A DNA stretch of 64,000 nt from Cymbidium sinense (Eukaryota > Streptophyta > Magnoliopsida > Asparagales > Orchidaceae), in assembly GCA_021442155.1 (NCBI GenBank), contig CM038229.1, positions 72,312,443-72,376,442 on the forward strand. The letters run 5' to 3'. The notes beneath the pieces are model-generated. The model saw only the letters and a program-made list of their open reading frames with translations. It was not told where the DNA came from and did no database searches. Position 1 is the stretch's first letter. Each line of letters begins with the position of its first letter. This document shows positions 1,381 through 64,000 of this stretch, piece after piece. The position numbers and the translations under genes were made by a program.

Positions 1381-1399
1381 ATTTTGAAAGTTTGAACCC

Positions 1400-4300
1400 A
1401 CATCTAACAACTTGGAAGTGTTAAGTGGGGTTCAAATGGATTTGAGAAGATTGATTGAAAGAGGAATTTGAATATGAATCCAACTTCAATAAATTTGGGT
1501 ATGTTGAAATATGGATTCAAATTTTTCTAAGAAGGATGCTTCCATAGGTTCATGTTTGTTTGAATTTGAATGTTTGATTTTAAGGACCCTTTCCTTTAAC
1601 AAATTTGGGAATGTTAAATTAATGGTCAAATTGATTTTGTTTTTGTTTGATTATTTTGGAATTTCATTCACTTAGCAAATTTAGGTATGCTAAGTGAAGT
1701 ATTTGAGAATGATTATTTCTTTAGAGAATTTTTGTTTTGCTTTTGGAAAATTTTGGAATTCTAACTTAGCAAATTTAGGTATGCTAAGTGAAGTATCCAA
1801 GTGTGTTTTGTTTGATTTTTGAAAATAGGATTCTTAGCAAATTTAAGTATGCTAAGGAAATCCTAAGTGTCTCATTTTGTTTAAAACGTTTTGGTTTTTT
1901 GACAAGGTAGGATCCTTAGCAAATTTGGGTATGCTAAGGGAATCCTAAGTGTTTCATTTTGTTTGGAATGTTTTGGTTTTTTGGAAAGGTAGGATCCTTA
2001 GCAAATTTGGGTATGCTAAGGGAATCCTAAGTGTTTCATTTTGTTTGGAATGTTTTGGTTTTTTGAAAAGGTAGGATCCATAGAAAATTTGGGTATGCTA
2101 AGAGAATCCTAAGTGTTTTATTTTTGTTTGTTTTGATTTGATTGAAAGTGGATACTTTCCTTTAGAAAATTTGGTATGCTAAAGATGAAGTCCCACTTAG
2201 TTTTGTGAAATAAAAATTTCACTTAGCAAATTTGAGTATGCTAAATGAAACTCCAAAAGGTGTGTCCAAAATTTTTGATTTGTTTTTTTTTTTGGATTTT
2301 GAAAATGGAAACTTCTCCTTAAAAAATTTAGTATTCTAAAGAAAGAAGTTCCAAAGGTGTTTGAAGATTTTTGTTTTGGACTTGAAAACTTCACTTAGCA
2401 AATTTGGGTATGCTAAATGAGGTTCCAAAAATGTGTTTTGAAAATTTTGGTTTTGGAATTTGGAGACTTCACTTAACAAATTTAGGTATGTTAAATGAAG
2501 TTCTAAAGTGGTGTTTGAAAATTATTAGATTTTTGATTTAGAGACTTCACTTAACAAATTTGGGTATGTTAAATGAAGTTCTAAGTATGTTTGAAAATTT
2601 TGAATTTTGAAATTTGGAAACCTCACTTAACAAATTTGGGTATATTAAATGAAGCTCCAAAATGTTGTTTAAAATTTTTTGAAATGTGATTGTTGATTTT
2701 TGATTTTGGATTTAGAAACTTCACATAACAAATTTGGGTACGTTAAATAAAGTTCCAAAATGTGTCTTTGAAAAATTTTGATTTTGGATTTGGAGATCAC
2801 TTAGCAAATTTGGGTATGATAGGTGAGGTTCCAAAAAGTTGTTTGAAAATTTTAGAATTTTGGATTTGGAAACTTCTCTTAACAAATTTGAGTATGTTAA
2901 ATGAAGCTCAAAAATGTTATTTGAAATTTTTTGAAATGTGATTGTTTATTTTTGATTTTGGATTTGGAAACTTCACTTAACAAATTTGGGTATGTTAAAT
3001 GAAGTTCCAAAAAGTATGTTTGAAAATTTTTTATTTTGGATTTGGATACTTCACTTAAAAAAATTTGGGTATGTTAGGTGAGGTTCTAAAAAGTTGTTTG
3101 AAAATTTTTGAATTTTGGATTTGGAAACTTCACTTAATGAATATGAGTATGTTAAATGAAGCTCCAAAATGTGGTTTGAAATTTTTTGAAATATGATTGT
3201 TGATTTATGATTTTGGAATTGGAAACTTCACTTAGCAAATTTGAGTATACTAAATGGAGTTCCAAAATGTGTTTTGAAATTATTTGTTTTAGAATTTTTG
3301 GTTTGGAAATTTTTGGATTTGGGAACTTTACTTAACAAATTGGGTATGTTAAGAGAAATTCTAAATGTGTTCAGAAATTTTTTGAATTTTGGATTTGGAA
3401 GCTTCACTCAATAAATTTGGGTAAGTTAGGTGAGGTTCCAAATGGTGTTTGAAAATTTTGAATTTTGGATTTGGAAACTTCACTTAACAAATTTGAGTAT
3501 GTTAAATGAGGTTCCAAATGTGTTTGAAAATTTTTCTAGATTTTGGATTTGGAAACTTCACTTAATAAAATTGGGAATGTTAAATGAAGTTCCAAAATGT
3601 GTTTTGAAAATTTTTGAAATATGATTGTTGATTTTTGATTTTGGATTTGGAAACTTCACTTAGCAAATTTGAGTATGCTAAATGAAGTTCAAAATTGTAT
3701 TTTTAAAAATTTTTATTTTTGAATGTGGAGACTTGACTTAACAAATTTGGGTATGTTAAATGAAGTTCCAAATGTATTTTGATTTTTTTTGAATAAGAGG
3801 TCCTCCATTTCACAAATTTGGGTATGTGGGAATGGAAGTTAATCTCATTTTTGAAATGTGAGATTTATTTTTATTTTGTGTGTGATTATTGCTTTTTGAA
3901 AGAGGGATTTCCAACTTAATCACATATGGGATATGTTTCAGTGGGATTTCCAAATGATTTTATTTTTATTTGAGAATGAAATCTTCATTCAAAAAATTTG
4001 GGTATATTTAATGAGGATGTTCATATGTGCTTTTGAAAAGTTTTAATTTTGTTTTGGAAATGAAACTTCCATTCAAAAAGTGTGAGTATATTGAATGAGA
4101 GGATTCATATGTGATTTTTGAAAAATTTTAATTTTATTTTGGAAATGAAACTTCCATTCAATAAGTGTGAGTATATTGAATGGAAAGGATCCTATGTGCT
4201 TTTTGAAAACCTGGATTTTGATTTCTTAGAAAGATGACTGTTTATTTTATTTCAAAAATGAAATCTTTATCAAAATGAATTGATGGAAGATGTTCATTTG

Positions 4301-4560
4301 TGATTTTGGAAAGATGTTAGTTTTATTTGAACATGAAGCTTCCATTCAATAAGTGTGGGTATATTGAATGGAAAGATTCATGTGTGCTTTTTTTTTTTTG
4401 AAAACTTTATGATTATGATTATGATTTTTAGAAAAGATGATTGTTCATTTTATTTTGAAAATGAAATCTTCATCAAAGTGAATTGAAAGAAGATGTTCAT
4501 TTGTGCTTTTCAAAAATGTTATTAGTTTTATTTTTGAAAATCCCTACATGTAATAATTAT
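1400..4560 (-). repeat. Hairpin array in the 5' leader of element alpha (about 35 units)
   Basis: About 35 diverged units, spaced roughly 70-100 bp, each carry an inverted repeat around a short loop. Examples on the plus strand: arms 2544-2556 and 2567-2579 (core CTTAACA / TGTTAA); arms 1996-2003 and 2014-2021 (CCTTAGCA / TGCTAAGG); arms 4153-4163 and 4174-4184 (TCCATTCAATA / TATTGAATGGA, perfect 11 bp). The loop is usually close to AATTTGGGTA on this strand. Spacers are rich in T and in TTTTGGA-like runs. The array lies between the primer-binding site (4949-4968) and the gag remnant, so in the sense (minus) direction it is leader sequence of the element RNA. A related array lies at 59300-61060. 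No protein frame runs through it. The arms vary together between units, which plain tandem duplication does not require. Confidence 0.85.
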
Positions 4561-4968: not shown

Positions 4969-6461
4969 GAAAAATCAGTGGTGAAAAATTTCTATATAAG
5001 AGGGAGTTGCCTTTCAAATCTGTCTGGTTGAAAATAAAGACAATACCTTTATAAAAATTCATCTTTTTAGGATGACACGTAGATCCGTAGAAATACTTAT
5101 TCAGGTGATCGAGTATGTCATTAAGGAAATAGTGTACTATCTCGAAAGATAAAAGTCACTACCCTTTATTAGACCTAATCACCTCAATAAAGACTCCTTA
5201 GGATGATGGTCTGCATATGTACTAGAGATTCTTCTCCTATTATATATGGAAAAGTAAAGCAAGATTTATTTTAAGCCGGGTTCATTAAGTTCCCTACAGG
5301 GGCAAGCCCCCATAGTTAATTACATCCTAAGGAATGGAGATTCCTTAAGAAAACTCTCGATTAAGGTAAATGATCATTGTCTCTGAAGATTTCAATAGGG
5401 AAGGACTATTAATTGATTGGTTTATTTTTGAAGATCAAATGGGATTGATCAAAGAGATATTTATTATTGAAGCCAAAATGGGAATAAGCAGGAGATGCTC
5501 ATGATGTTAGCAAACCTAGCGAGCATCTCAAACTATCTTATGATTGGGCTTTATATTTCTGAAACTGATTTAGTTTGTTTGAGTTGTATTTTTGTTAGAA
5601 TATTAGGGCCTACAATTCCATAATACAAGGTTATGAAAATGCCTAAGATGTGAGGATTTGAGCTTAGGGCCCACAAAGGGGAAAAATAATCTCAAAATAT
5701 AAATCGAGGGAGCTTTGGTGAGGGCTGAAAGCACAACCTAAGTCTAAGGAAAGAAATGGGTAATTGGTTTGCCTCCACAAGAGAGGACAAACCACCCAAC
5801 AGCTTACACTTACAACTGCTTGGGGGTGGCTGCCAACTAGCTCCTCCTATGATTTTAAATACATGTAGGAAAGTCTTCATGCTTAATGCAAGATAGCTAG
5901 GATGTTATTATTTAGAAAGAGACTAAGTCATTAAACTCACTCCCTAAAGAGACTAGATCATGTAAAGGTATGCTTCAAATGACCTAAATCTAATGCAATT
6001 CAAATTTCATTTTATTTTCATTTTGGACAATCATTTTGACTCACGCTAATAGGATTTATATGCAATGCATGAGAAATAAAGATTATGGGCCAAAATTAGT
6101 GAGAAAGGAGGAGGTGAGTTTCCACCATGGCTCTCACAGGTCAAGCCAAGTTTCTCTGGCAAAGGTGGAAGCCCTCCAATCAAGAGTGAAATAAGATGTA
6201 TTTGTGCAAGATATTATAAAATAAATTCTCATCCAGCTAAGGGATTGCTAATTCTTTCATCTTGATTTAAACCTAAGCTTTAAGTAAGGTTATGAGTTTT
6301 TTAATTTGAATTTGAGTCGTTAGGTAGGGTAAAAAATTTATTTTTTCCTAAAGAGCCTAATCCACATCTAGGCCATACATAAAGCAAAAAGCATCTTTGA
6401 ACATTCACCATTAATATAATAAATTAAATAAATGTTATGTGAGAGCTATTTCTTCAATTCT

Positions 6462-6494
6462 TTCTTCTTCTTCTTCTTCTTCTTCTTCTTCTTC
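6462..6494. repeat. (TTC)n microsatellite
   Basis: About eleven uninterrupted TTC units inside the alpha LTR. At the corresponding place the other LTRs carry the conserved block with TATAAGG, which alpha lacks. The tract probably marks a local deletion and expansion. Confidence 0.9.
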
Positions 6495-29672: not shown

Positions 29673-32600
29673 TGTGGTGTTTATTTTTGGGATGTGGGAC
29701 ACCATGCAGATCTTAGGTGATACTTATTGAAGTGATCAGGTACGATATTAAGGAATGATGTACTATATCAAAAGATAGAAATCACCACCCGATAATGGAC
29801 CTAATCACCTAATAAGGACTCCTAAGGCATGATGGGTCTTCGAATATACCAGAGATTGTTCCCCTACTTTACATGAAAAAGTAAAGTAAGGTTTATTTTA
29901 AGTCGGGTTCATTAAGTTGCCTATGGAGGCAAGCCCTAATAGTTAATTACATCCTAAAGAATGGGAATTCCTTAAGAATACTCTCGATTAAAGTAAATAA
30001 TTAGGTTCTCCAAAGATTTTAATGTTAAGGCTATCAAAGGATTGGCTATTTTAGAAAATCAAATGGGATACATCAAGGAGAAGACTTATTTTTGGAATCC
30101 AAAGGGAGAGAGTAGGAAATGCTCATGATACTAGGAAGCCTAGTGAGCATTCCAATCTACCCTATAGTTGGGCTTTATATCTTTGAAATTGAAGAAAGTT
30201 AATTATTTGAGTTGACATTTTATTAGATTACTAGGGCTTATAATTCTATAACATAAGATTATAAAAATGCCTAAGAGGTGAGGATTTATGCTTGTAGCCC
30301 AAAGAAAATAACCTCCTTAGATTCCTAAACTAAGGAGCCTTGGTACAAAATAAAGGCATGACCTAAATCTACAGAAAAAATGGGTATATGGTTTACCTCC
30401 ATAAGAGAGAATAAACCACCAAACTGTTGGACTTATTACCGCCTGGAGAGGCAACCAGGTAACTCCTCCTATGCTTTAAATCCATGTAGGAAAGTTTTAT
30501 GCTTTGCAAGATGGCTAGGCTGTTGTTCATTTAGAAAGGAAACTAAGTCCTTAGACTCACTCCCTAAGAGACTAGAGCATGAGTGGTATGAATCCATGAC
30601 TTAATCTAATGAAAAATTTATCAAATTTATTTGATTATTTTGGACTTTTTGTTTTGACACTGGCTATGGGATTTTGTATGCCTAAATGCATGGGAATTTG
30701 ATTATGGGCTAAATCAAAAGAAAAAGGGGTGTCTTCCACCAAAGGCTCTCATAGGTTAAGCCTTGATTCTCTGGCAAGGATGGAAGCCCCCTCTTAACAA
30801 GAGTGAAAGAATATGACATGCATGATATTATACATTCATCCATCCAGCTAAGGGGTTACTAAAAACTTTATTATCTTAATTTAATTCCTAGGCTTTTATG
30901 TGAGGTTATGAGTTATTTTAAAATTTTAATTATGAGTTGTTAATTGGGGTAGAAAAATTAATTTTATCTTAAGAGCCTACCGCATCCAGGCCACACATTC
31001 AAGCATCAATCATAAAGAAACTATGAAAAATATGATGTTCAAATGTGCAATCTAAATACAACATCAAATAATTTTATAGATTACTGTAAAAGAATAAAAG
31101 GCCAATGCGGTCGGGTTCCGCCATACACCTCAAAAAAAGAAAAAGAAAGATGGGTAGCTGAGCTCTACCCTTTTACAACCCGGATTACAAAAAAAATAAT
31201 ACATGCTATGAGGGTCTTCTTTTCTTCATTTCTTCCTTTCTCTTTCTTTTGATTTGATTTGCTCCAAGGCTTCACAGGGCACCCTAGGGACTAAGCCTTC
31301 TGGCCACTACTCATCCTAATCCCCCATAGCACTAATCCTAATTCCTAATACAAAATTACATTAAAAATAGGAAAAGTAAATCTAGCTACACGTGCAAAAC
31401 AAATGTTAGCTAAACGCACCATACAACCCAAGTAGTTATATGAATAATTTATACTTAGCACCCACACATGGGTAACCAAGCCCAACTGTCCTAACATGGG
31501 CTATGCTTAGGGGCTAAGCAACCTGCATAGCAAAAGCATTTATATTTATATTACAGTGGCCCCGTAAGCACAACCCCATGTAGAAAATATGATTAGGCTA
31601 ATAACAGCCTAACATCCAGTCTAAAATATTACATCATAAAATAAAATACAACATCATACATACAACGCCCTAACTTAGCACTAGAAGTGGTGACTTAGTA
31701 TTCTAATGTGTGTGCTTAAGGCTTGTGTGACAAGACTTTACTAGGCTTTTTTTGTTTAAGTTTCAATTTGGAGTTTGAATTTGTTTAAAGTTTACCTTTG
31801 GGTGATTTCAATTTAAATGATTTAATGATTTACTTTTCATTTTTATTTCAATTTTATTTGGTTAAAGAGATGTTTAAGTTTTCAAGAATGAAGAGTAGAA
31901 TGAGTTCCACTTGTAGATGGAACTCACCCAATTCTACATCCTAATTCCTAAAGAATCTAACCAAGGTCCTTAAGTACCTTAATTAGCCCATTTGAATTTG
32001 TGTAATTTGTTCGATTTGATTCATTTGACTTGATTTAGAATTTAGAATTTAGAATTCGAGTTTGTTTAAGTATTTGATTGATTGATTTTAGATTAGAAGT
32101 TTTAGTTTAATTGCATCTTGATAATTCAATATCCTTAATATCTAGTGAAGTTTGTTTAAGTTCATGTGTTTTTGGTTGATTAAGTTTAGATTAGATGTTT
32201 CAATTTAATTGAATCCTGATAATTCAATATCCTTTTAAATTAATATTTAACTCTTTTCTTTGATCATGGTTGTGTGACTTAACTTTATGTTTGTTTAATT
32301 CAATTGTGGTTCATTTATTTGTAATTTGATCGGATTAGAATAATTGAAATTTTATTTTGATTTTAATTGGGCTTGATTCTTTGTAATTAGGACCTTTATT
32401 TTTAATCACATCCATTTGTCATGTTCATCAAAGTTTGGTTAGTATTTTGACTTCATACATTGGATAGTTGATTAGTTTATCTTATTTAAGTAGATAGAAT
32501 GAGATTTGACTTGATTACATATTAAATTGATGAGAGTCTTTCTTAATTTGGTTTAATCTTATTTAGTTTGATTTGACTAGCTTTATCAGTCTATGGGTTT

Positions 32601-33840
32601 GCTTAGGTTCAATGTGATTATGTGATTAGTTCAATTAAGAAGTGTATTTATGTTAATTATAAATGTTAGTTTAATTTTCAATTTGGTTTCATATTGGTTT
32701 AGATTAATGATGTAATTAATGACTTAGCCATTTAAGTTTAATTTAGACTTTGATCGGTATTTAATTGCATCTTGATTGATTAAACTTAAGTTTAATGTGA
32801 TTAATTTGATTAACTTAATTAAGTTTAATGTGATTAATTTGATTAACTTAATTAGTTTGTTTAAGAGGTTTGATCAATTATTAAATTAAATAAAGATTTG
32901 TTTAATTTTTTTTAATTTGATTTCATATTTATTTAAGTTAATGATATAATTAGTGAGTTAATAATTTATGTTTAAATTAAGATTTAATTAGTATTTAAAT
33001 GGATTTATGTTTAATTAAGCTTAGGTTTAATATGATTAACTTAATTAACTTAATTAGTTTATTTAATAGGTGTGATTAACTTAATTTGTGGATTAATTAA
33101 GTTTATGATTTGGATTAATTTTAATGTGATTTATAAAATTAATTTAATTTATTAAGATGATGGATTGATTTATTAAGTTTGCATTAATTAGATGTTTGAT
33201 TAATTAAGTTTGATTAAGGGTCAATTAAAATTATTAGATTAATTAAGAGTTTATTTAATTAGAGATTAATAAATTAACGATTTAGGTTTCGATTAGTGTT
33301 TAATTGCATCCTAATTATGATTGATTAAGTTTTAGGTTTAATTTTCTTAGTTTGATTTACTTAATTAGTTTACTTGAGGGATGTAATTATTAAATTTAAT
33401 TAGGGGTTTGATTTAAGCTTAATTTTAGAGTTAGCTTTAATGTAACTTATTTAAATTAATTTAATTAATTAAGGTGATGGAATAATTTATTTAGTTTACA
33501 TTAATCAGATGTTTGACTAATTAAGTTTGATTAAGTGTAATTAAATTTTTAAATTATTAGATTAATTAAGGGTTTGTTTAATTAGAGATTAATGACTTAA
33601 TTTCCCACATGTGAGTGATTTGGTTTAGTTAAGTATTTTTTTAAGTTTGATTTGATGAAAGGATTATTGTTATTACCATCATTGTTATTAAGTGAATTAA
33701 TTGTTTATTTCATTTCAATTAAGTTTGATTATTTATGATTAGAGTTTTATTTGATTTGATTCATTTGTTATGTTTGTTTGATTTCATTAACATGTTTGAT
33801 TTAGTTATTAGGTTGAAATATTTATTAGTTAATTAATTAT

Positions 33841-39600: not shown

Positions 39601-41460
39601 AACATAGTCAAGAGGAAAGGAGCCTATGGGGGACTTACCCTAAGCTTCAAATATATTTGACCTAGTTACATCATGATGATTAGTTCAAGAAGAAAATATG
39701 AGAACTCACATCTTCTTAAACAGGATCAACCATGAGGTAGCTTACTGGCCAGGCAGCGAAGACTACGAAACTAACAAGGCGCTTGTCAATTTGTAATGGT
39801 CAAATTAGGTAGAAAGCATGGGGACTCACATCCTCCAACAAATGACCATTAGGGTGATCGGTTGCTTTGGGCATCAAATTGAGCCCATCCTAGAGCAGCT
39901 AATGAGTGAGTGCCACAGGGGGCTTGCTCTCACATCAAAATAGCCCGAAAGAAAGATATGTGTGTTTGTGTTTGATATGAAGGAATAGGATGCCATTGGG
40001 GGACTCTTCCACCTAAACCTCAGGGAAACTCGACCTAGTCAGAGTATGGTAGCTAGTTCAAGATGAAAGCACTGGGACTCACATCTTCTTAAACAAAGCT
40101 AACATAAGGTAGTTCAATGGTAGGGTAGTGAAGAATACCAAACTAACAAGGCGCTTGTCAGTTTGCAATGGTCAAATTAGGAAGAAAGCACGGGGACTCA
40201 CATCCTACAACAAATGACCATTAGGGTGATCAGTTGCTTTGGGAAACAATCGAACCCGACTTAGAGCAACTAATGAGTGAGTGCTACAGGGGGCTTACTC
40301 CCACATCAAAGTAGACCGAAACAAAGATATGTATGTTTGTGCTTGATATGAAGGAATAGGATGCCACTGGGAGAGTCTTACACCTAAACCTTAGGGAAAC
40401 ATGACCTCAGAGTATGTTGGCTAGTTCAAGAAGAAAGTGTTGGGACTCACATCTTCTTAAACAAAGGCAACATAAAGTAGTTCACTGACAGGGAAGTGAA
40501 GACTACCAAACTAACAAGGTGCTCGTCAGTTTACAATGGTCAAATTAGGAAGAAAGCGCGGGGACTCACATCCTCCAACAAATGACCATTGGGGTGATCA
40601 GTTACTTTGGGCAACAAATCGAACCTGACCTAGAGCAGGTAATGAGTGAGTACCATAGGGGGCTTGCTCCCATGTCAAAGTAGCCCGAAAGAAAGATATG
40701 TATGTTTGTGCTTGATATGAAGGAATAGGATGCCAATGGGGGACTCTTACACCTAAACCTTGGGGAAACTCGACATAGTCAAAGTATGGTGACTAGTTCT
40801 AGAAGAAAGCGTTGGGACTCACATCTTCTTAAACAAACCCAACACAAGGTAGTTCACTGATAGGGCAGTGAAGACAAACTGATAAGGCACTCATCAGTTT
40901 GCAATGGTCAAATTAGAAAGAAAGCGTGGAGACTCACATCCTCCACAAATGACCATTGGGGTGATCAGTTGCTTTGGCCAACAAATCAAACCTGACCTAG
41001 AGCAGTTAATAAGTGAGTGCTATAGGGGGCTTGCTCCCACATCAAAGTAGCCCGAGAGAAAGATATGTATGTTTATGCTTGATATGAAGGAATAGGATGC
41101 CACTGGGGTCTCTTACACCTAAACCTTAGGAAAACTTGACCTAGTCAGAGTATGGTGGCTAGTTCAAGAAGAAAGCGTTGAGACTCACATCTTCTTAAAC
41201 AAAGCCAACACAAGGTAGTTCACTAGTAGGGTAGTGAAGACTACCAAACTAATAAGGTGCACTTCAGGTTTACAATGGTCAAATTAAGAAGAAAGCACGG
41301 GGACTCACATCCTCCAGCAAATGACCATTAGGGGTGATCGGTTGCTTTGGGCAACAAATCAAACCCGACTTAGAGCAGCTAATGAGTGAGTGCCACAAGG
41401 GGCTTGCTCTCACATCAAAATAGCCCAAGACTAAAGATATATGTTTATTTCATAAGTGGT
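39600..41460. repeat. Tandem array, five units of about 368 bp, in epsilon
   Basis: The marker ACTCACATCTTCTT occurs at 39704, 40077, 40445, 40817 and 41183, giving a period of 366-373 bp. A second marker, ACTCACATCCTCC (with one variant), follows about 120 bp later in each unit (39824, 40196, 40564, 40932, 41303), so each unit contains two related parts built on GAAAGC...GGGACTCACATC. It lies between the RT remnant and the 3' LTR in the sense direction. Ogre-type elements are known to carry tandem repeats at that position, which can seed satellites. No protein frame runs through the units. Confidence 0.88.
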
Positions 41461-42990: not shown

Positions 42991-43662
42991 GTTAACTTAA
43001 AACTTTGATCCTCTTCTTCGCATCAAAAGTTTCTTAAATAGGAATAGCAATAAGTTAAATTTTGAGTTTATTGACTGCTACCTTTGGAAATGTATTGGGC
43101 ACTTTATAATGGTCTTCGGTAAAGCAGACTTTAAACTACAAAAGTAACCTAACCAAGTCGTTGGCATTCTCCTTCTAACTTATCATATATGGATGTTGGG
43201 AGGGTGGGTGGACTCTCTTCATGTTCTAAGGTACTTTTTTATTTTTTTTATTTTTTTATTTTTTATTTTTTTTTACTTCAGGGAGTACATTCTCTATTTG
43301 AAAATCTTCAAAATTATTTGAGCAAAGTAGGTAGACTAAGCAAAAGATAATTTTATTACCTCATTCGAAGGTCTATCTACAAGCATTGAATCCTCTTTTG
43401 AGCTTGAAGAAAGAAAAATGAAGTGGAAATTTGAAATCTCATAATGTTTTATTTTTTTTTTGCTAGAGGTTAGGGGCAACTCTTAACTTCCAATCCTATA
43501 ATAATATCATGAGATAGTAGAATTGTAGTCAATGTGCTCGCATACCTACTAACTTTCTAGTCATATCATACATGAATCCTCCTTTTAGAACTTAACTCCA
43601 CAGATTTGCCAAAACTAGACTCAAAATTTATCTCATGTATTATTTTCTCTCTTTTTTTTCAT
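42991..43662. other. Unassigned internal sequence of epsilon upstream of RT
   Basis: Expected to correspond to the protease and pol linker in the sense (minus) direction. I see no protease DTG-like motif or other recognisable block. A T-rich tract at 43225-43275 is low complexity. Confidence 0.5.
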
Positions 43663-44320
43663 GAATTTACACCTCATACACATGATTTATTCTTTGTATT
43701 CTAAATCAATGTGTATTATTGATGCTTTACTTTTTTTTCTTTTTCTTCTTCTCATTCTCCTTTTTTTTTGAATTTACACCTCATACATATGATTTAATTT
43801 TTTTTTATTATAAATCAATATTTATTATTGGTGCTTTACTTTTTTTTCTCTTTTTCTTCTTCTCATTCTTCTTCTTCTTCTTCTTCTTCTTCTTCTTCTT
43901 CTTCTTTTTTGAATTTACACCTCGTACATATGATTTATTTTTTGGATTCTAAATCAATATGTATTATTGGTGCTTTACTTCATCTCTTTTTCTTCTTCTC
44001 ATTCTTTTTTTTTTTGAATTTACACCTCATACATATGATTTATTTTTTGGATTCTAAATCAATATGTATTATTGGTTACTTACTTTTCTCTTTTCATCTT
44101 CTCATTCTCCTTTTTTTTTTTTGAATTTACACCTCGTACATACGATTTACTTTTTTGGATTCTAAATCAATATGTATTATTGGTGCTTTACTTTTTCTCT
44201 TTTCTTTTTTTCTTCCTTTTTTTGAATTTACACCTCATTCATATGATTTATTTATTTTTTTTGGATTTTAAATCAATATGTATTATTAGTGCTTTACTTT
44301 TTCTCTTTTTTCTTCTTTTC
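43663..44320. repeat. Minisatellite, six units of about 100-140 bp
   Basis: GAATTTACACCTC or a near match starts units at 43663, 43770, 43911, 44016, 44123 and 44224. Each continues with CATATGATTTATTTTTTGG, a TAAATCAATATGTATTATT core, GTGCTTTACTT, and a variable T/C-rich tract that accounts for the length differences. The phenylalanine-rich open frames here are products of the T/C tracts, not genes. Confidence 0.85.
43868..43906. repeat. (TTC)n microsatellite inside a minisatellite unit
   Basis: About thirteen TTC units expanded from the pyrimidine tract of the second minisatellite unit, which explains why that unit is the longest. Confidence 0.9.
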
Positions 44321-44759
44321 TTTCTCCTTTTTTTCTTTTGTTTTTTTTTTTTTTTTTAGTCTTTGTCTATATTGTGTTCTCTGGAGGAGATTGCTTGTCT
44401 TTCTTTTCCATAGGATATTCTATGTTGAATATGACTTGAGGAGGTTGCCACTAACTGAGCAAGGAAGAATCAAATACTTTTCTATCTCATTAGAGAATGT
44501 GAGAGTGCACTTATTACTTAGCTTAGTGGGAAACCTTCCAAGGTAGTCTAGGACATTGAGATTAACCTTGAGAACAATTTGATGCCCTTATTTTGGATTG
44601 TGAGGTGTATCTTAAGAAGGATTTAGAATTTGATTATTTCCAATGACTTGTTTGCTTCTTCCTATGGTGTTGATCAAAGTGGTAGGACCTTGCCACTGTA
44701 ATAATTGACTTTTGTGATATCTTCTGAAAGAGAGGTAGAATTGGTGTCTACATACTCTC

Positions 44760-46229: not shown

Positions 46230-49154
46230 TGTGGTGTTTATTTTTGGGATGTGGGACACCACGCAGCTTAGGTGATACTTATTGAAGTGATCAGGTACGA
46301 CATTAAGGAATGATGTACTATCTTGAAAGATAGAAATCACCACCATATAATGGACCTAATCACCTAATAAGGACTCCTAAGACATGATGGGTCTTCGAAT
46401 ATACCAAAGATCTTTCCCCTACTTTACATGAAAAAGTAAAGTAGGGTTCATTTTAAGTCGTGTTCATTAAGTTCCCTATGGAGGCAAGCCCCCATAGTTA
46501 ATTACATCTTAAGGAATGGGAATTCATTTAGAATACGATCAATTAAAGTAGATAATTAGGGTCTCCAAAGATTTCAAGGTTAAGACTATCAAAGGATTAG
46601 CTATTTTAGAAAATCAAATGGAATAGATGAAGGGAAGACTTATTTTTGGAATCCAAAGGGAGAAAGTAAGAAATGCTCATGATACTAGGAAGCCTAGTGA
46701 GCATTCCAATCTACCCTGTAGTTGGGCTTTATATCTTTGAAATTGAAGAAAGTTAATTATTTGAGTTGACATTTTATTAGATTGCTAGGGCTTATAATTC
46801 CACAACATAAGATTGTGAAAATGCCTAAGTGGTGAGGATTTATGCTTGTAGCTTGAAGAAAACAACTACCTCAGATTCCTAAACTAAGGAGCCTTGGTAC
46901 AAAACAAAGGTACGACCTAAATATAAGGCAAAAATGGGTATATGATTTACCTCCATAAGAGAGAATAAACCACCCAACTACTGGACTTATTATCGCCTGG
47001 AGTGGCAGCCAGCTAACTCCTCCTATGCTTTAAATCCATGTAGGCAAGTCTTATGCTTTGCAAGATGGCTGTTATTCATTTAGAAAGGAAACTAAGTCCT
47101 TAGACTCCCTAAGAGACTAGAGCATGAGTGGTATGAATCCATGACTTAATCTAATACAAATTTTATCAAATTTATTTGATTCTTTTGGACTTTTTGTTTT
47201 GACACTGGCTATGGGATTTTATATGCCTAAATGCATGGAAATTTGATTATGGGCTAAATCAAAAGAGAAAGGGTTGTCTTCCACCAAAGGCTCTCATAGG
47301 TTAAGCCTTGATTCTCTAGCAAGGATGGAAGCCCCCTCTTAACAAGAGTGAAAGAATATGACATGCATGATATTATACATTCATCCATCCAACTAAGGGG
47401 TTACTAAAAATTTTATTATCTTAATTTAATTCCTAGGCTTTTATTTGAGGTTATGAGTTATTTTAAAATTTTAGTTATGAGTTATTAATTGGGGTAGAAA
47501 AATTAATTTTATCCTAAGTGCCTACCGCATCTAGGCCACACATTCAAGCATCAATCATAAAGAAACTATGAAAAGCATGATGTTCTAATGCACAATCTAA
47601 ACATAACATCAAACAATTTTATAGATTATTGTAAAAGAATAAAAGGGCAATGCGGTCGAGTTCTACCGTACACCCTGAAAAGAGAAAAAAACATGGGTAG
47701 CCAAGCTCTAGCCTTATACAACCCGGATTACAAAAAAAAAATACCTGCTATGAGGGTCTTCTTTTCTTCATTTCTTCCTTCTCTTTCTTTTGATTTTATT
47801 TGCTCCAAAGGCATCATAGGCACCCAGGGGACTAAGCCATCGGCCCTCATCCTAATCCCCATAGCACTAATCCTAATTCTAATGCAAAATTACATCAAAA
47901 ATAGGAAAAGTAAATCTAGCTACTCCAAAATAAATGTTACACACCATACAACCCAAGCGTTATATGAATAATTTGGACTTAGTACCCATACATGGGTAAC
48001 CAGTTGTCTAACTATGGTTAAACAGGGCACTGCGAAAAGCTTTTATATTTATATTACAACGGGGCAACCCTATAGAAAACATGATTAGCTAACTACTAAC
48101 ATCCGATCTAAAACATACACCCTAACATCCAGTCTAAAACATTACATCACAAAAAAACACAACATCATATATACAATGCCATAACTTAGCACTAGAAGTG
48201 GTGACTTAGTATTCTAATGTGTGTGCTTAAGGCTTATGTGATAAGACTTTACTATGCTTTTTTTTTTTAGTTTAAGTTTCAATTTGGAGTTTGAATTTGT
48301 TTAAATTTTACCTTTGGGTGATTTTAATTTAAATGATTTAATGATTTACTTTTCATTTTTATTTCAATTTTATTTGGTTGAAGTGATGTTTAAGTTTTCA
48401 AGAATGAAGAGTATAATGAGTTCCACTTGTAGATGGAACTCACCAAATTCTCTAATTCTAAAGAATAACCAAGGTCCTTAAGTACCTTAATTAGCCCATT
48501 TTAATTTATGTAATTTGTTCGATTTGATTCATTTGACTTGATTTAGAATTTAGAATTCGAGTTTGTTTAAGTATTTGATTGATTGATTCTAGATTAGAAG
48601 TTTTAGTTTAATTGCATCTTGATAATTCAATATCCTTAATATCTAGGGAAGTTTGTTTAAGTTCATGTGTTTTTGGTTGATTAATTTTAGATTAAATGTT
48701 ACGAGTTAATTGAATCCTGATAATTTAATATCCTTTAAATTAATATTTAACTCTTTTCTTTGATCATGGTTGTGTAACTTAACTTTATGTTTGTTTAATT
48801 CAATTGTGGTTCATTTATTTATAATTTGATCGGATTAGATTAATTGAAATTTTATTTTGATTTTAATTGGGCTTGATTCTTTGTAGTTAGGACTTTTTTT
48901 TAATCACATCCATTTGTCATGTTCATTAAAGTTTAGTTTGTATTTTGACTTCATACATTGGATAGTTGATTAGTTTATCTTATTTAAGTAGGTTGAATGA
49001 GATTTGACTTGATTACATATTAAATTGATGAGAGTCTTTCTTAATTTGGTTTAATCTTATTTAGTTTGATTTGATTAGCTTTATCAGTATATGGGTTTGG
49101 TTAGGTTCAATGTGATTATGTGATTAGATCAATTAAGAAGTGTATTTTGTTATT

Positions 49155-49161
49155 TGTAAAG
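49155..49161. repeat. Probable target-site duplication of the RTE LINE, left copy
   Basis: TGTAAAG here and TATAAAG at 51267-51273 flank the LINE with one mismatch. The empty site in the 3' LTR (near 32655-32675) reads TTAATTATAAATG. Confidence 0.5.
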
Positions 49162-55747: not shown

Positions 55748-55752
55748 GTGGT
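55748..55752. repeat. Target-site duplication of epsilon, right copy (GTGGT)
   Basis: Exact repeat of 29668-29672, directly after the LTR end ATCAATA. Confidence 0.9.
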
Positions 55753-58700
55753 TGCATATCATATTGGATCATTATTAGTTGGTTAATTAACTTAAAGTGA
55801 TATAGGTAACAGTTAATTAATCCACTTAATTCATACCCTAACCTAATTAAATCATAGAACCAGCTTAATTATTTCTTCCTTGAATCAAAATTAACTCACA
55901 CATGGAGAATGAGATTAAGACTAGCAATCCTCTTTCACTTTTCAAAACCAAGCTCAACCCAAAAATGAAATGACATTAAAGAAACTTTGGTTTATTTTAA
56001 ATAGCCTTATTTAATATGATTGTCCTTAGGACTTAGTTGGATTTGAATGAAATCACATGCTTGTGTTGTTTTATTTCTTTCTACCCATGTTAAAAGTTGC
56101 TTGCCATATGTAATCATGCATTCATTTCTTTTGAAATTAACTAAATGAATTAATTTCTTTTATGTTTAATTGCATGTGTTGCTTTAAATAAAATAGGTGT
56201 GGCTATTATTACTATTAAATCAAAAAATATTTTCAAAAAAACCTAGAAATCAATTATATTGGATGGAGTGATGTTAATCACAAGTATCTATAAGTATGCA
56301 TGTGAAAATAATATAAGATATGCAATATGAAGTTCTTTTTCCTCATCCTACATGGATTCACATAGGATTTACAAATGTGTAATTCATTTGAAAAGAATAC
56401 AATATTTGCCTAAATCTACTCCTATGCATCTACATGTTAAGACTCAGGAAGAATTTCACATCATATATCTAAATCATATAATCAAATCAAATATAACTAC
56501 TTCCATGACTTCTTATGCTTGTGGTCCTTTTTGTATATTCATATGTATCTGAGAAAAGTGGTATATTAGTCTAGACACTCAGGGGCTACGAGGCTTTAAG
56601 TAGCCCTAAGTAGATCTTATACCTTATGCCCCCAGTGTAGAACAATGACACCGTAGTCACTTAAAACTCTTATAAATATGTATGTGTGATGTGATCAATG
56701 AATAAGAATCATAATCAAAAAAATAAAATATAACTTTTGCATGGTTTTCCCTATCCTTATTGTTGCTTATACATCTACATGTATCTAAGAAAAGTGACAT
56801 ATTAGTCTGGACACCCTGGACCTACAAGGCTACGATGATTTAATTATCCCAAAGTAGGTCTTGTACCTTACACTCCTGGTATAGAACAATGGTGATGTAC
56901 TCACTTAAAACTTCTATACTTGGGAATATGTAATTAGATAATGGATGAAAAATCCCTCTTTTCTATGAAAAAGAAGACATGCATTCATAATTCAATCAAA
57001 ATTAAATATTTAAATTCCAAACATATTTCTTTGTAATCAACATTTAAGTGTACTAAGATTTACATTGCATGTATATGTGTGCTTAGGATTTAATCATATG
57101 CATGATATATATGATGAAAAGAAATGAATGAACATGTGTTATGTGATAGTAATTCATTCTAATTAATTTTATGATATCTTTCTTATTGAATAGGTTCATT
57201 TAGAGTGAACCTAAATTTAGGATTGATTAAAAAATATAATAATCCATTCACTATAGGAAATTGATTAATTTGCTTGCTTTAGAAATGACTTAAGGTAGAG
57301 ATGGAAGAGAGATTCCCTCTCTTTCTTCTCTTTATAACACTTAGTTGTTAAGTGTAAGCAATATAAAACAAAAGGAAAATATTAAGTAAAATCTTCAAAT
57401 CAATTAAATCACTTAAAGTGAAATCAACCCCTTTATAAATTAAATCCCTCATACTTAGCAAACTACAACTCTAAAGCCCAGTTAGGACATACCACACAAG
57501 CTTTAATGCACACACATTACACTAGGTCACCACTTCTAGCTTTATGTTAGGGCAATGTATGGTTTGATGTATGCTTATTTTGTGATATATTATTATAGAC
57601 TACATGTTAGGGTATATGTGTGTAGTATGGATATTAGGTCGATACTAGCCTAATTATGCTTTCTGCAGGGGGTTGTGCTTAAGGGGTCGTTCAATAAAAA
57701 TATAAATGCTTTTTGTTGTGCAGGTTGCTTAGCCCTAAGCATAACCCAAGTTAGGACAGGTGGGCTTGGTTACCCATGTATGGGATGCTAAGTCCAAATT
57801 ATTCATATACCTTCTTGGTTGTATGGTGTGTTTAGCTTAAAAATTGTTTTGTAGGTGTAGCTAGATTTACTTTCCTTCTTTTAATATAATTTTGCATTAG
57901 GATTATGATGAGTGTTATGGGGGATTAGGATGAGCATTGGTTATAAGACCAAGTCTTATGTACCATGTGATGCCTTTGGAGCAAGCACATTCAAATCAAG
58001 CCAAAAGGAGGTAAGAAAGGGAGAAAATAAACTAAAAAAATGAAGAGATGAAAGAGATGAAGAATAAAGAATGAAGAATAAAGACCCCCCATAACATTTG
58101 TCATTGGTAATTATTCTTTTGTAGTCCGGGCTGTATAAGGGTAGGGTTTGGCTACCCACACTTCTTTTCGAGTTATACAGCAGTACCCAACCACATCGGT
58201 CTTTTATTCTCTTGCGATAGCTTTATAGAATTATTTTATGTTTTTCTTAGCTTGTGTATTAGAAAAAGCATGCCTTTTCATAGTTTGTTTATGATTGGTG
58301 ATTGTTGTATGGCCTGGATGTGATTAAGCTCTTTGGATGAAAATTAAATTTTCTATCTCACTAATAAACTCATAACTAAACTTTTAAAATAACTCATAAC
58401 CTCACATAAAGCTTAGGTATTAAATTAAGATAATAAAATAATTAGCAACCCTTAGCTAGATGTTGTATGCTTAACAGCATGTATATCATCTTATTTCCCT
58501 CATGATTAAAGAGGGCTTCCATCTGTGCCAGATAGAATGGGCTTAACCATTGAGAGCCTATGATGGAAGAACACCTCTTTCTCTTTTGATTTGGCCTATA
58601 ACCAACTTCTCATGCATTTAGGCATATAAAATCCTATAGCCTATGTCAAAATAAAAAGTCCCAAATTGAATGAAATTTGATAAAAATTTGCATTAGATTT

Positions 58701-59245
58701 AAGTCATTATTGATACCCCTCATGCTCTAGTCTCTTAGGGTGTAGGTTTAAGGACTTAGTTTCTTTTCTAAATAATAATAACATAACCATCTTGCAAAAG
58801 CATAAGACTTGCCTACATGGATTAAAGTGTAGGAGGAGTTAGCTGGCTACCACTCCAGGCTGTAATAAGTCCAGCAGTAGGGTGGTTTATCCTCTCTTAT
58901 GAAGGTAAACTGTATACTAACTTTTGCCTTAGATTTAGGTCTTGCTTTTGCACTCGCCAAAGCTCCCTAGATTTAGGATCCAAGGTTATTGTTTCCCTTT
59001 GGGGCTATAAGCATAAATCCTCACCTCTTAGGCATTTTCACAACCTTATATTTTGGAATTATAAGTCCAAGATTTTTAATAAAATTTCAACTCAAATAAA
59101 TAAATTCGCTCAATTTCAAAAATATAAAGCCCAAACATAGGATAGATTAGAGTGCTCACTAGGCTTTCTAGTATCTCCCTACTCATCTCCTCTAGTTTTG
59201 ATAATAACTCTTCCCTCTAGATCTATCCCACTTTATTTTCTAAAA
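55753..59245 (+). mobile_element. Gamma LTR, 3' segment, truncated
   Basis: Gamma resumes with TGCATATCAT and aligns with beta 14833-18089 in order. It keeps the TATAAGG block (58134-58140). Homology ends near 59245, about 400 bp before the expected LTR end, so the CACCACA terminus and the primer-binding site are missing. Hairpin-leader sequence follows within about 60 bp, which points to a deletion across the LTR/leader junction. Frames such as 56352-56552 are chance frames in LTR sequence. Confidence 0.82.
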
Positions 59246-59299
59246 TATAACATACAAGGTTAATCTAGCTTGGTGATGCAAAGTTAATCTAAAATTTAA

Positions 59300-61060
59300 G
59301 AAAATAAATTCTTTCACTTCCAAAAGCACTTTTTTTGAAAATAGTCACCTTCATGCAACATACTCAAATTTGTTGAGTGAAAATCCTATTTTCAAAGCAT
59401 AACATAAAATTGAAACTCCACTCAACATATTTCACATATGCTAGAATGGAAGTTTCTCTCTTTTCAAAATCAAAGAAATCACATACATGGCATCAAAACA
59501 TATCATTGAAATCTATTTAACATACTTATGATTTGTTAAATGAATTTCATCTCCATTTTGGAATTTATTTAACATGCCACATTTGTCAAATAAAGAATTC
59601 CCCTCTCTTTCCAAAAAGAAGGAGTTTACATCAAATACACTCAATTACTACTTAACATGTCAAAGTTTGTAAGTGAGAATCTCATTTTCATATGCATTTG
59701 ATTCCAACTTAACATGTCAAGGTTCTTAAGTGAGAATCTTATTTTCATGTCACATTTTATTCCCACTTAACATATCAGAATTGTTAAGTGAGAATCTTAT
59801 TTTCATGTCATATTTGATAACACATAACATATCAAAGTTTTTTAAGTGAGAATCTCACTTTCATATACATTTGATTCCCACTTAACATATTAAAATTCTT
59901 AAGAGAGAATCTCATTTCCATGACACATTTGACTTTCACTTTACATGTCAAACTTGCTAACTAGGAGTCTTGTTTTCATAGATCATATTTGATTCCACTT
60001 AACACATCAAATTTGTTAAGTGAGAATCTCTTTATCATTACATATTTGACTCCCCACTTAACACACCAAATTTGTTAAGTGAGTGCCTCATTTTTCATGT
60101 CACATTTGGCCTCCACTTAACATATCTAATTTGTTAAGTGTGGGCCCCATTTTCAAAACATAAATCATATTGTATTTGAACTTTCACTTAACATACCAAA
60201 TTTGTTAAGTGCGAGTCCCATTTTCAAAACATAAATCCATCACATTTGGATTTTTACTTAACATACCAAATTTGTTAAGTGGAAGTCCCATTTTCAAAAC
60301 ATATATCAATCACATTTGGACTTTCACTTAACATACCAAATTTGTTAAGTGAGAGTCCCATTTTCAAAGAAAATCAAAACATCCATCATATCACATTTAG
60401 ACTTTCACTTAACATACCAAATTTGTTAAGTGAGAGTCCCATTTTCAAAGAAAATCAAAGCACCCATCAGTCACATTTGGGTTTTCACTTAACATACCAA
60501 ATTTGTTAAGTGAGAGTCCCATTTTTGAAGAAAAGCAAAACATATATCATCAAATTTGGGCTTTCACTTAACATACCAAATTTATTAAGTGAGAGTCTCA
60601 TTTAAATAGAAAAGCAAAACATATATCAATCACATTTGGCTTTCATTTAACATACCAAATTTGTTAAGTGAAAGTCTCATTTTCAAACATAAATCAAACA
60701 CATGTGGCTTCTACTTAACATATCAAATTTGTTAAGTAAGAAGCCCCATTTTCAAATCAACATTTCACACATCACAACCAAAGACATTCTACAAAAAATT
60801 TTAAACACACAATCACAATCTTTTCTTAGCATACTCAAATTTGCTAAGTAGAGGTCCTTTCAAATCATCAATATTTTCAAACAAGATACAGGAAATAAAA
60901 ATATCTCTAAGAAAATCTCTCCTCAAATTTCTGAACCCCACCCAACCTACCTAAATTGGTTGAGTATGGGTTCCGAAATCGAAATCAAATGGCAAACACT
61001 CTCCTCCATTTCAAAATCTCTCCACTGAACCCCACTTAACATATTTGAATTGTTAAGTGT
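59300..61060 (+). repeat. Hairpin array in the 5' leader of gamma (about 24 units)
   Basis: About 24 units spaced roughly 55-80 bp, better preserved than in alpha. The clearest unit has arms 60318-60333 and 60343-60358 around the loop TACCAAATT: 16 consecutive pairs, one of them G-T (G-U in RNA). Neighbouring units at about 60185, 60254, 60403, 60484, 60564 and 60646 keep the core CACTTAACA / TGTTAAGTG while the outer arm and spacer vary. Spacers read CCATTTTCAAAR and CACATTTGG. The array lies between the truncated LTR and the gag remnant, the same place as in alpha, and reads in the same sense direction. The 76-codon frame at 60279 runs through the repeats and is not a gene. Confidence 0.9.
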
Positions 61061-61720
61061 AAGTTCAGGATTCCAAATCAATATTTCTCTCTCATAATAA
61101 ATATTAAAGTAAATTCGACTTCTGATTCAACACATGCAGATACGGTCTGATGCACGATTATTAATTTTTGTAGTCAATATACATGGCTTCACAGAAGTTT
61201 TTTTTTTCACTTTCCCCTTTGGGATGGACTTGGTTTTGGATCGGGCTAGCCTACCCGTGATTGACTATACCCACCTAGTTTTCTTTGGTTAAGGATTTGA
61301 AGGAGCACGTGTTAGTTGTGAGGGGCAACCAAAGACTACCGTCCGAGACGTAGTAGGTCCAAGCTACCATCCCATTGACATGCCCTCTAACTCGAAAATT
61401 CTCTATTGAAGAGGAAGGCCATAGTTGTTCCCATGCCCTGTTCTGAGATAGTTTCAGCACCTGTCCATCCAACTGTCCATACCATTGCTCCAGCAAGAGC
61501 TACTACCTCCTTTTGGTTACCCCGAAGGGGAATGCTATCTTAGCTTCTGAGATAGTCTCCTCCACATTTGAGGTAGGTACTAACTCCCGCTCTGCCTTGT
61601 TCACTTGTACTCAATGCCATAATAAAATTGAAAGATTAAGCGGGAGCACAAGCGAGCAGCCAGAGAGCTTGAAGTTGCATCCCACATAGTCGAAGAGGGT
61701 TCACCCTGATAGGTCTCTCC
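61061..61720 (+). other. Leader of gamma between hairpin array and gag
   Basis: No gene is recognised. A polypyrimidine stretch (T10, then CACTTTCCCCTTTG, 61199-61222) followed by AG dinucleotides near 61278-61291 could serve as a splice acceptor upstream of gag, but nothing shows that it does. The minus-strand frame 61275-61496 and scattered plus-strand coding-like stretches have no family match that I know. Confidence 0.45.
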
Positions 61721-64000
61721 ATTTCTAACAACAACAAGTTCCACCCCCTCTCGGCCTCGAACAAAGAGGAAGATTATAGGAGGATTGCTTCTTCTCCTTC
61801 ACCAGCAATATATTATGAGACACTAGATAGAGAGCACAAGAGGCCCTATGCAGGACTTAGGACTATCCTACATCAAGTTGGCAGAGCACACGGACACTCG
61901 AAGTCTAGTACCTTATTTGGTTTGTGATCATTGATCCTTAGGAGTGTTTTGGGTCAAATCCATAGGGAGAGAGTTGCAGAGGCTCAAGCATGTACTCATG
62001 TAGACATGAGAGAGTAGCAGAGATACATTAGAAAGTTGGCATCCTTTCCTCTAATAGATTTCCCTGATCATCCCCCGATCAGGGCTGATCATTCAGACAT
62101 GATTTTTCTTATCGGTGTTACCCACCGTAGGCAGAGATCTCTCATTGAGGGATAATTGGTGTTGCTTTCACACCACTCCCCTCATTGTACACCATCACCC
62201 GTACAGCTCCCAGCTTCCACCACTCCCCCCAAGATCCAGAAGCCCTCATCAGAGGAGAGACCTTCTCCTTTGGTGATCTGGATTCGACCCGGGGATCTCA
62301 CTCCCTCCATCCCACCTATTGAGGTGAGATCGAGCTCCCCTACTCGACCCTCTACTTCAACTGTGGTTCGACAAGAGTGGCGACCCCACAGTGTCATAAT
62401 CGCACCACCACCACCATTAGATCTAGTAGTAGTGGTACTTACAGAGGGGGAAGCTGATAGTTTTATAGTTCCCATGGCAGTAGATCTCCTCAGGAACACC
62501 GCTCCACCGACGAGCAGTCATGAGCATATCTCTTCCAGTGAGCATAACCCTCCTATAGCTAGCACTCCAGTGATAGGTAGTGTTAGATGTATTTCATTTA
62601 ATGACCACAGTACCTCCATCGGTAAGCCCCGAGTATTTGTGTTGGCATGTTTAGATTGTTCCTTATATGAGATCTTAACTGCTTACTTTGCTGAGAAGAG
62701 GGAACTCTTAGGCAGTGATCGTACAAATTTTGGGGATGAGCGGATAGAATTTGATCCTGATGAAGATGACCTTCTTGAGGATTCAGCCAAAGTTCACATG
62801 ATCAGCACAAGGAGCTCCTTTTAGAGGGATCAGCATAGTCAAGAAGGTGTTGTGGTTGAGGAGGACGATGTCATCCATTCTATACAACACCTCCCTCAGC
62901 AGCTTAAATAGAAGGATGATCAGATCAACTGGATGGAGAAGAGGATGGAATACTTGTTAGTAACCCTCCATGCACTTCAAAATCAAGCCTCAGCCCCACA
63001 ACATATACCGATAGAGATAGATCATCTTAAGTTAGCACATGTTCAAGATAAGCCCAAGAGCACTTCTCTAGTAGATCAGGATAGTGGAGCTTGCATAGGA
63101 AGGTGGTGGATAACACCTCCATGCATGAGAAAGACATTAAAAACATGGTGGAACAACAGGTGAAGGATACGTTGACTCAAGCCTGAGGTGGCTCATATAT
63201 TCCATAGGGTAGACAATACTCAAAGGAATTTGATGTTGTCCAATTCCCTAAGGGTTTTGTGCCTCCTTCCTTCAAAATCTTTTATGATAGTGGGAACCCC
63301 CGACAACACATAGCACATTTCAAGGTTAGATGTTGCAATGCCGGTGGCAGCGATGCATTCTTATTCTGCCTCTTTGTCATTAGCTTGACAAGCATCACAT
63401 TTGATTGGTATGCTAAACTACCTAATAGTTTAGTGAAGACATTTGTTGAGTTAGAGTAGCTCTTTATTAAGAGATTTGCTGGAGCTCAGGAAAGGGTAAC
63501 TATAGGCAATCTCGTTGTAGCTCAACAACTCCCCGATGAGTCTCTTATTGATTATATTCTTAGATGACACAATTTAAGTATGAAATGTGAACCACAGCTG
63601 TCTGAACAGCATGTCATTGAAATTCTACTCAAGAATATTCATGTCCCGGTCGCCTTCATGCTTAGAGGGTTTATCATTAAGACATTTGAGAAGTTAATCA
63701 ACAAGGCATCTAGTCTACAAGGGGAGATCAAACAGTTACCTTTCCAAGATCAGTCAGCCAAGCCCAGACCGTAGAAGACATTTGAGAAAAGGCCAGGGGC
63801 AGTCACAGTAATTGATAAGGGGAAACAGCCAACCAGGGTTCAGTCAAACAAGCCTCGAGCTCAACAGTCTCCTCTACCACCTCCTTTGCCACCACCTCAA
63901 TCATCATACCTACCACTTCAATTGCCATAAGGGCCTCCACCGTCACCTCCTCAACAGTATCCTCATCATCATCATCCGCAGCAGTACTCCTACCCGCCAC
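61720..64000 (+). pseudogene. gag: Broken gag polyprotein gene of gamma (Ty3/gypsy), cut by the window edge
   Basis: An upstream coding-like part (RPYAGLRTILHQVGRAHGHS, ASFPLIDFPDHPPIRADH) precedes a 222-codon Pro/Ser/Thr-rich frame (62156-62824; the first codon is TTG after a stop, so this is not a true start). It continues in the same frame past stops at 62822 and 62909 to 63163, then shifts frame. The retrotransposon gag domain follows: GFVPPSFKIFYDSGNPRQHI (63256-63315), ITFDWYAKLPNSLVKTFVEL, LFIKRFAG, a DESLIDYI block and QHVIEILLKNIH, then a Pro/Gln/His-rich tail. Further stops lie at 63457, 63565, 63772 and 63928. In intact elements the product forms the particle. The N-terminal extension matches the minus-strand remnant at 1-1380. 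Dead copy. Confidence 0.85.

Follow-up and report, generated by a model that had tools for sequence, protein, structure and literature searches.

LTR retrotransposons make up a large share of many plant genomes, and to our knowledge little has been learnt of the cis-acting RNA signals carried by those of plants. One question then is how to account for a retrotransposon leader that is built as a tandem array of like hairpins, the stems of which change from unit to unit and yet stay complementary, as is found in the window, by which we mean the whole stretch of 64,000 nucleotides of the Cymbidium sinense genome under analysis. An earlier note, made from the letters of this DNA, had counted about 24 such stem-loops and had taken their co-varying arms as a sign of selection on an RNA structure. 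In our assessment the hairpin array is probably under selection, acting as RNA; the step that it would serve is a matter for more reserve, and is taken up at the end.

The array and its host element

The host of the array is a giant Ty3/gypsy element of the Tat kind (Ogre/Retand-like). In this element the array lies after the 5' LTR/PBS region and ahead of a gag-type ORF region, and a second, divergent element carries a further array on the other strand of the window.

55748..59251, plus strand: segment of the 5' LTR that runs collinear (78-85%) with LTR pieces in the copy on contig C9
59251..59265, plus strand: deletion junction of the window copy, where about 670 bp are gone, among them the end of the LTR and the first part of the leader with the PBS
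59345..61066, plus strand: beta array, 22 hairpin units in the element leader, delimited by a sequence-only HMM
60178..60745, plus strand: strong block, in which eight strong hairpins follow one another at intervals of 68-81 nt, with A/C/T-rich linkers
60318..60358, plus strand: best hairpin, its 16 pairs (all Watson-Crick except one G.T) enclosing the loop TACCAAATT
60816..60857, plus strand: variant-stem unit, CTTAGCA/TGCTAAG, with the ten-base loop TACTCAAATT
61183..63459, plus strand: gag-type ORF region, with stop-to-stop pieces at 61673-61927, 62156-62824, 62912-63163 and 63208-63459
1394..4377, minus strand: alpha array, 34 hairpin units in the second, divergent element, with the same loop motif and G-poor linkers

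The units were extracted with an HMM profile that reads sequence only and does not require pairing; the array described earlier stands, and its count comes to 22 units instead of about 24. Strong hairpins, as found by a simple hairpin scan of 59300-61060, are well above dinucleotide-shuffled controls, with 16 at a score of at least 18 (mean 1.7 and maximum 3 in 20 shuffles) and nine at a score of at least 26 (none in 20 shuffles). A control stretch of the LTR (1761 bases) gives one hairpin against a shuffle mean of 3.85 at a score of at least 18 and none at a score of at least 22, and an equally long stretch of the ORF region gives five against 3.05 (maximum 6) at the threshold of 18 and one against none (20 shuffles) at that of 26. 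The best unit does form 16 consecutive pairs, and the stem variants named beforehand, CTTAACA/TGTTAAG, CTTAGCA/TGCTAAG and ATTCAATA/TATTGAAT, all occur among the extracted units. That every unit is an inverted repeat holds well for the strong block, but several units at 59642-59970 make poor hairpins. The commonest loop in the wider beta family is TACCAAATT, present in 155 of 796 units. As a matter of composition, the hairpin arrays contain hardly any symmetric methylation sites, far fewer than the ORF region.

The placing of the array in a retrotransposon leader is right as to position, with the correction that the window copy lacks the start of the leader and the PBS-like stretch. It also lacks pol, and this copy of the element is dead. 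The copy on contig C9 shows the great LTR length and the extensive non-coding sequence typical of the Tat clade; its LTR pair measures about 7.5-7.9 kb, with pieces that are 81-86% identical, and its array follows the PBS-like stretch and precedes the ORF region. The match to window position 59265 sets in there some 280 nt past the end of the LTR, and the hairpin units start about 80 nt further on; the sequence just upstream of this point is alike in 37 of 39 other copies, the remaining two comprising one that reads N and one misplaced by its anchor. About 8 nt past the LTR end the seven copies shown have a stretch of the form TGGCGACTCC...GGGGA (its exact ten letters in one of the seven), which we take as a putative PBS, varying in sequence among them. 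Just upstream of the array, at L005:1386-1406 and at the equivalent places in other copies (not the window copy), there is a short hairpin, CCTATTGGG-CTC-CCCAATAGG, of which the version in L006 has one pair changed on both arms with pairing kept (CCTATTAGG/CCTAATAGG); in 27 of the 37 copies shown, the sequence GGTGAAAA or GGTAAAA stands 3' of this hairpin.

The region at 61183-63459 is presumed to be gag-type from its position and appearance. Pieces similar to these ORFs are present in other copies, and short gag-type matches also occur 3' of both the alpha array (24 and 31 residues) and a gamma array (73 residues); a Pfam scan of three gag-type pieces of the window and one downstream piece returned no match above the cut-off. 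The domain order comes from relatives. In L047, where four of the eight pieces scanned had a match, an RT_RNaseH piece (4972-5193) is followed by an RVT_3 piece (5507-5911) and an integrase zinc-binding piece (5932-6477), and L050 has an RT-matching piece slightly below the curated cut-off. From its place between RH and INT we infer that the RVT_3 piece of L047 is the aRH, a second RNase H which in this place is given as the mark of Ogre and Retand in the Tat clade (PMC6317226).

A shared non-autonomous family without pol was considered but is not borne out, the window copy, L044 and L053 losing pol at different points. The internal region breaks off into LTR-like sequence at L009:2556-2563, at L044:607-610 and near 1851-3813 of L053, and such different break points suggest repeated independent loss of pol; as the copies were found via their leader, they allow no inference on its retention. 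Elsewhere in the window there are tandem arrays at 39681-41426 (a 368-bp unit, 4.7 copies, 86% matches) and at 43645-44334 (a unit of about 105-107 bp with many TTC/TCT runs), and two 3-kb stretches, 29673-32663 and 46230-49160, run in the same direction with 90% identity and may be a younger LTR pair or a duplication nested in older elements.

Recurrence of the design and co-variation of the arms

The alpha array contains 18 hairpins with a score of at least 18, against a shuffle mean of 3.65 (maximum 6), and the design extends well beyond the window. A search with the leader started from 7504 first-look candidates and gave 40 scored places including the window's own, the main matches being 79-100% identical; of alpha-type places 40 were likewise scored, again with the window's own, and five were fetched. 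Two sets of units were assembled. The beta-family set, reduced from 876 profile hits to 796 full-length units, draws on 41 sources, namely both arrays of the window plus 39 other leaders, and the alpha-like set holds 193 units from eight divergent arrays, alpha and seven more, all of the same array design; the sets are largely separate, with the window's alpha array in both. The commonest loop of the alpha-like set is TACCCAAATT, in 70 of 193 units. In several divergent arrays of one genome the design is kept and the stems change.

Among the 55 distinct units of the window (22 beta and 34 alpha, two being alike), 80.1% of the cells pair, against 72.4% with the 3' letters shuffled, and both sides have changed in 101 cells, against 51 in the shuffled sets, none of 500 reaching 101, and 19-48 in slid registers. 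Pairs with a both-side change number 13 of 16, a count that 51 of 500 shuffles match. Column pair 4/41 takes five pair types, and column pair 5/40 is C-G in 20 units and U-A in another 20.

The larger sets were compared with a tree-aware null, in which columns evolve independently at their own rates on the unit tree. At pairs 3-13 of the beta family the Watson-Crick excess is 931, the null giving a mean of 31 (sd 163) and a maximum of 523 in 400 runs; in the alpha-like set the excess is 299 against a mean of 4 (sd 42) and a maximum of 125 in 500 runs, this control for relatedness being limited by trees built on units of 71 columns. Pairs 17-30 show no Watson-Crick excess over the same null in either set. 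With a value of 1644, the G-statistic for pairs 3-13 is higher than the average of the column-rate null (774, sd 279) and lower than its maximum of 2579. A further null, R-scape-like and used before it, shuffles substitutions among the columns of a branch, which places too many changes in the conserved stem columns and gives a wide distribution of G; the summed G-statistic does not exceed it (1880 against a mean of 2115), and both percent paired (pairs 1-9, 12 and 13) and the summed same-branch doubles (28 against 8.4, maximum 19) do. The co-variation claimed for the arms survives a null of independent columns on the tree in two sets of units, but not the substitution-shuffling null when this is judged by G.

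Own arms out-pair the mean of swapped arms in all four arrays, alpha, beta, gamma and delta (z 6.8, 4.3, 4.6 and 3.1, respectively), with the best of 2000 swaps in delta, the smallest array with 13 units, reaching 96 against the observed 95, and the exchange of 3' arms costs on average 3.6 kcal/mol per unit over the 796 units. Changes in the core stem (pairs 1-9) number 125 on internal and 500 on terminal branches, compared with 571 and 895 in the outer columns and an intermediate 94 and 210 in the loop, for units that were chosen by likeness to the core, a choice which may favour conserved cores. The rarity of core changes on internal branches fits constraint in living elements and decay after insertion.

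Strand polarity and the competing explanations

The reading of the array as RNA depends mainly on a polarity of the two strands, a new observation absent from the earlier note. On the sense strand of the alpha array the loops contain a single G in 337 letters, and the linkers 2.3% G and 19.8% C. All eight alpha-like arrays agree, with 0-1.5% G and 20.6-29.0% C in the loops and 1.8-3.5% G and 17.9-19.9% C in the linkers, as do the linkers of all 40 beta-type leaders (3.3-6.0% G, 17.0-22.1% C); beta loops are moderately G-poor, at 5.4-5.7% G and 16.4-17.2% C (5.7 and 16.4% over 796 units). In the LTR part of the window G and C are balanced, at 15.8 and 15.9%. Because the arrays share ancestry, these agreements do not count as many independent events. 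In partition-function folding the probability that loops are unpaired is 0.96 for the sense and 0.40 for the antisense strand of one alpha stretch (1390 nt), and 0.80 and 0.53 for one beta stretch (1120 nt), so that hairpins with open loops are the fold to be predicted for the sense RNA. Mean unit energies over 796 units are closer, -13.2 sense against -12.7 antisense, with 427 units favouring sense and 354 antisense, and for the first 1700 nt of 12 leaders the antisense fold is the more stable in all 12.

Were pairing selected in RNA, G.U would be expected as the favoured intermediate between two Watson-Crick pairs. First steps on internal branches of the beta family lead to G.U in 42 cases and to A.C in 54, showing no preference for G.U, and in the alpha-like set the figures are about 36 and 27 (approximate, with single and double changes pooled); internal and terminal branches do not differ in this respect (p 0.41 for beta, 0.11 for alpha-like). 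Internal branches do carry fewer transversion mismatches, a deficit which is not specific to pairing, since the loop columns show the same. Of the selection on RNA structure proposed at the outset, the structure is thus upheld by the co-variation of the arms, whereas RNA as the selected molecule is not singled out by these intermediates. Equal tolerance of G.U and A.C is what would be expected if neither strand were special, that is, if the palindromes were kept as DNA, in the form of dyad-symmetric protein sites or of cruciform-prone leader repeats, as proposed for the LTR boxes of Sireviruses. These Ty1/copia elements carry 8-32 palindromic RM boxes each, built on a CGG-CCG core in 12 of the 13 elements; the boxes are placed either before env or within the LTR, 5' of the TATA box, and form CpG islands (PMC2829016). 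Both cases have high-copy palindromic units in the non-coding DNA of plant LTR elements. Here, however, the stems are A/T-rich and nearly free of CG, the units lie in the leader, and the domain order, taken from relatives, is of the Ty3/gypsy type. More generally, stems that change and still stay complementary would hardly be tolerable to a sequence-specific protein, and G-poor loops and linkers are strand-specific, a polarity hard to explain by DNA palindromes, which we accordingly hold to be a rather unlikely basis for the array.

It could also be that no selection acts on the fold, and that the arms are matched by mutation, through template switching within the hairpin during reverse transcription or replication together with turnover of units by unequal exchange. 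Changes from one Watson-Crick pair to another on the same branch do exceed the null (22 against 5.3, maximum 15, at pairs 3-13), and 14 of the 27 branches with double changes are terminal, where copies should be dead. The double changes are, however, not copied tracts: in 26 of the 27 branches just one pair is affected, and 23 of the 28 cases are transition-transition, and 12 of the 14 terminal branches concerned carry at least four changes, against a mean of 2.8. As core stems are, in addition, better conserved on internal than on terminal branches, an origin by mutation appears unlikely.

A third explanation keeps the RNA but assigns it another task, in that ribosomes would pass the leader of about 2 kb by hairpin shunting or by entry at the A-rich, unstructured linkers, or the array would be an intron of the gag mRNA. 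The linkers are indeed A-rich, and the sense strand leaves them more open than the antisense strand does. The donor-like GGTGAAAA or GGTAAAA lies upstream of the array in 27 of the 37 copies shown, and an acceptor-like stretch, ATTAATTTTTGTAG (61160-61185), stands directly upstream of the ATG at 61183, which TTTTTGTAG precedes, so that the array is possibly intronic in some transcripts. ATG is not avoided, its 149 occurrences in eight divergent arrays ranking third among the six letter permutations (47-269), and we regard this explanation as quite improbable.

There remains silencing, with hairpins that feed or decoy small-RNA enzymes or a sequence that evades CG and CHG methylation. CG reaches 0.00-0.11 and CHG 0.03-0.18 of expectation in nine arrays, compared with 0.12 (CG) and 0.39 (CHG) for the LTR and with 0.34 and 0.84, respectively, for the ORF region. 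Such scarcity may stem from one repeated unit without these sites, the array stems are short as substrates for plant Dicer-like enzymes, and among nine Rfam matches at E<=1 in 59200-61200 no family, miRNA precursors included, attains its gathering score (the best, MIR7993, has 30.2 against 100 bits), all of which leaves silencing a very remote prospect.

Known systems and a putative RNA dock

Among known systems the nearest by lineage, judged on domain order, are the tandem-repeat regions of Tat elements (Ogre/Retand), for which large non-coding regions, often with arrays of tandem repeats, are described (PMC6317226, PMC7004042, PMC11963269). The arrays located in PMC7004042 and PMC11963269 lie downstream of pol and before the 3' LTR, whereas here the order is PBS-like stretch, array and gag-type ORFs, so that the array stands upstream of the gag-type pieces and not between pol and the 3' LTR. 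The units here are, moreover, co-varying hairpins with a kept loop, a structure that finds no mention in the portions of the Tat repeat descriptions available to us.

The position is shared with retroviral elements. Retroviral packaging signals are located between PBS and gag, and the stem-loops for packaging and dimerisation found there are few and differ from one another, frequently carrying unpaired G; the present hairpins lie between the same landmarks, but comprise more than 20 like units with G-poor loops. The plant pararetrovirus CaMV has a long structured leader, in the form of a single elongated hairpin with short ORFs, unlike the tandem array of like hairpins seen here. The CaMV leader is reported to recruit an RNA export complex (PMC12786077). 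Among the matches listed from the open-licence literature, no title or abstract opening describes a hairpin array in the leader of a plant LTR element, which is weak evidence of absence.

With these comparisons in mind, we return to the array as an RNA under selection and give even chances to its being a cis-acting element that works within the full-length sense RNA of the retrotransposon. Such an RNA would present 20-30 short hairpins, of about 9-16 bp in beta and, if mismatches are allowed, as many as about 20 in alpha, each with a loop of 9-10 nt of the type UACC(C)AAAUU, and the G-poor linkers would ensure that mainly the hairpins fold and that the loops stay exposed. Each hairpin would then be one putative binding site of a multivalent dock for a protein, its fold and loop kept by selection; the candidate ligand would most likely be Gag, or else a host export or packaging factor, and the bound protein would select the long, unspliced RNA to be exported or packaged. 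The anatomy and placing of the array, its recurrence in the genome, the co-variation of its arms beyond the tree-aware null and its strand polarity come out of the computation; the ligand and the step are proposals, and a role in packaging or export is to be taken as a tentative suggestion, rather possible than probable. More tentatively still, the array could represent a new kind of retroelement RNA element, in which multivalent like hairpins, with one loop motif and G-poor linkers, tag the RNA of the element for a protein that is either Gag-type or from the host.

A hairpin that is repeated, co-varies and has a single loop motif offers a direct handle on the protein that would bind it, and on export, packaging and translation. 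It also makes the evolution of a stem readable in many parallel units per copy and in many copies per genome.
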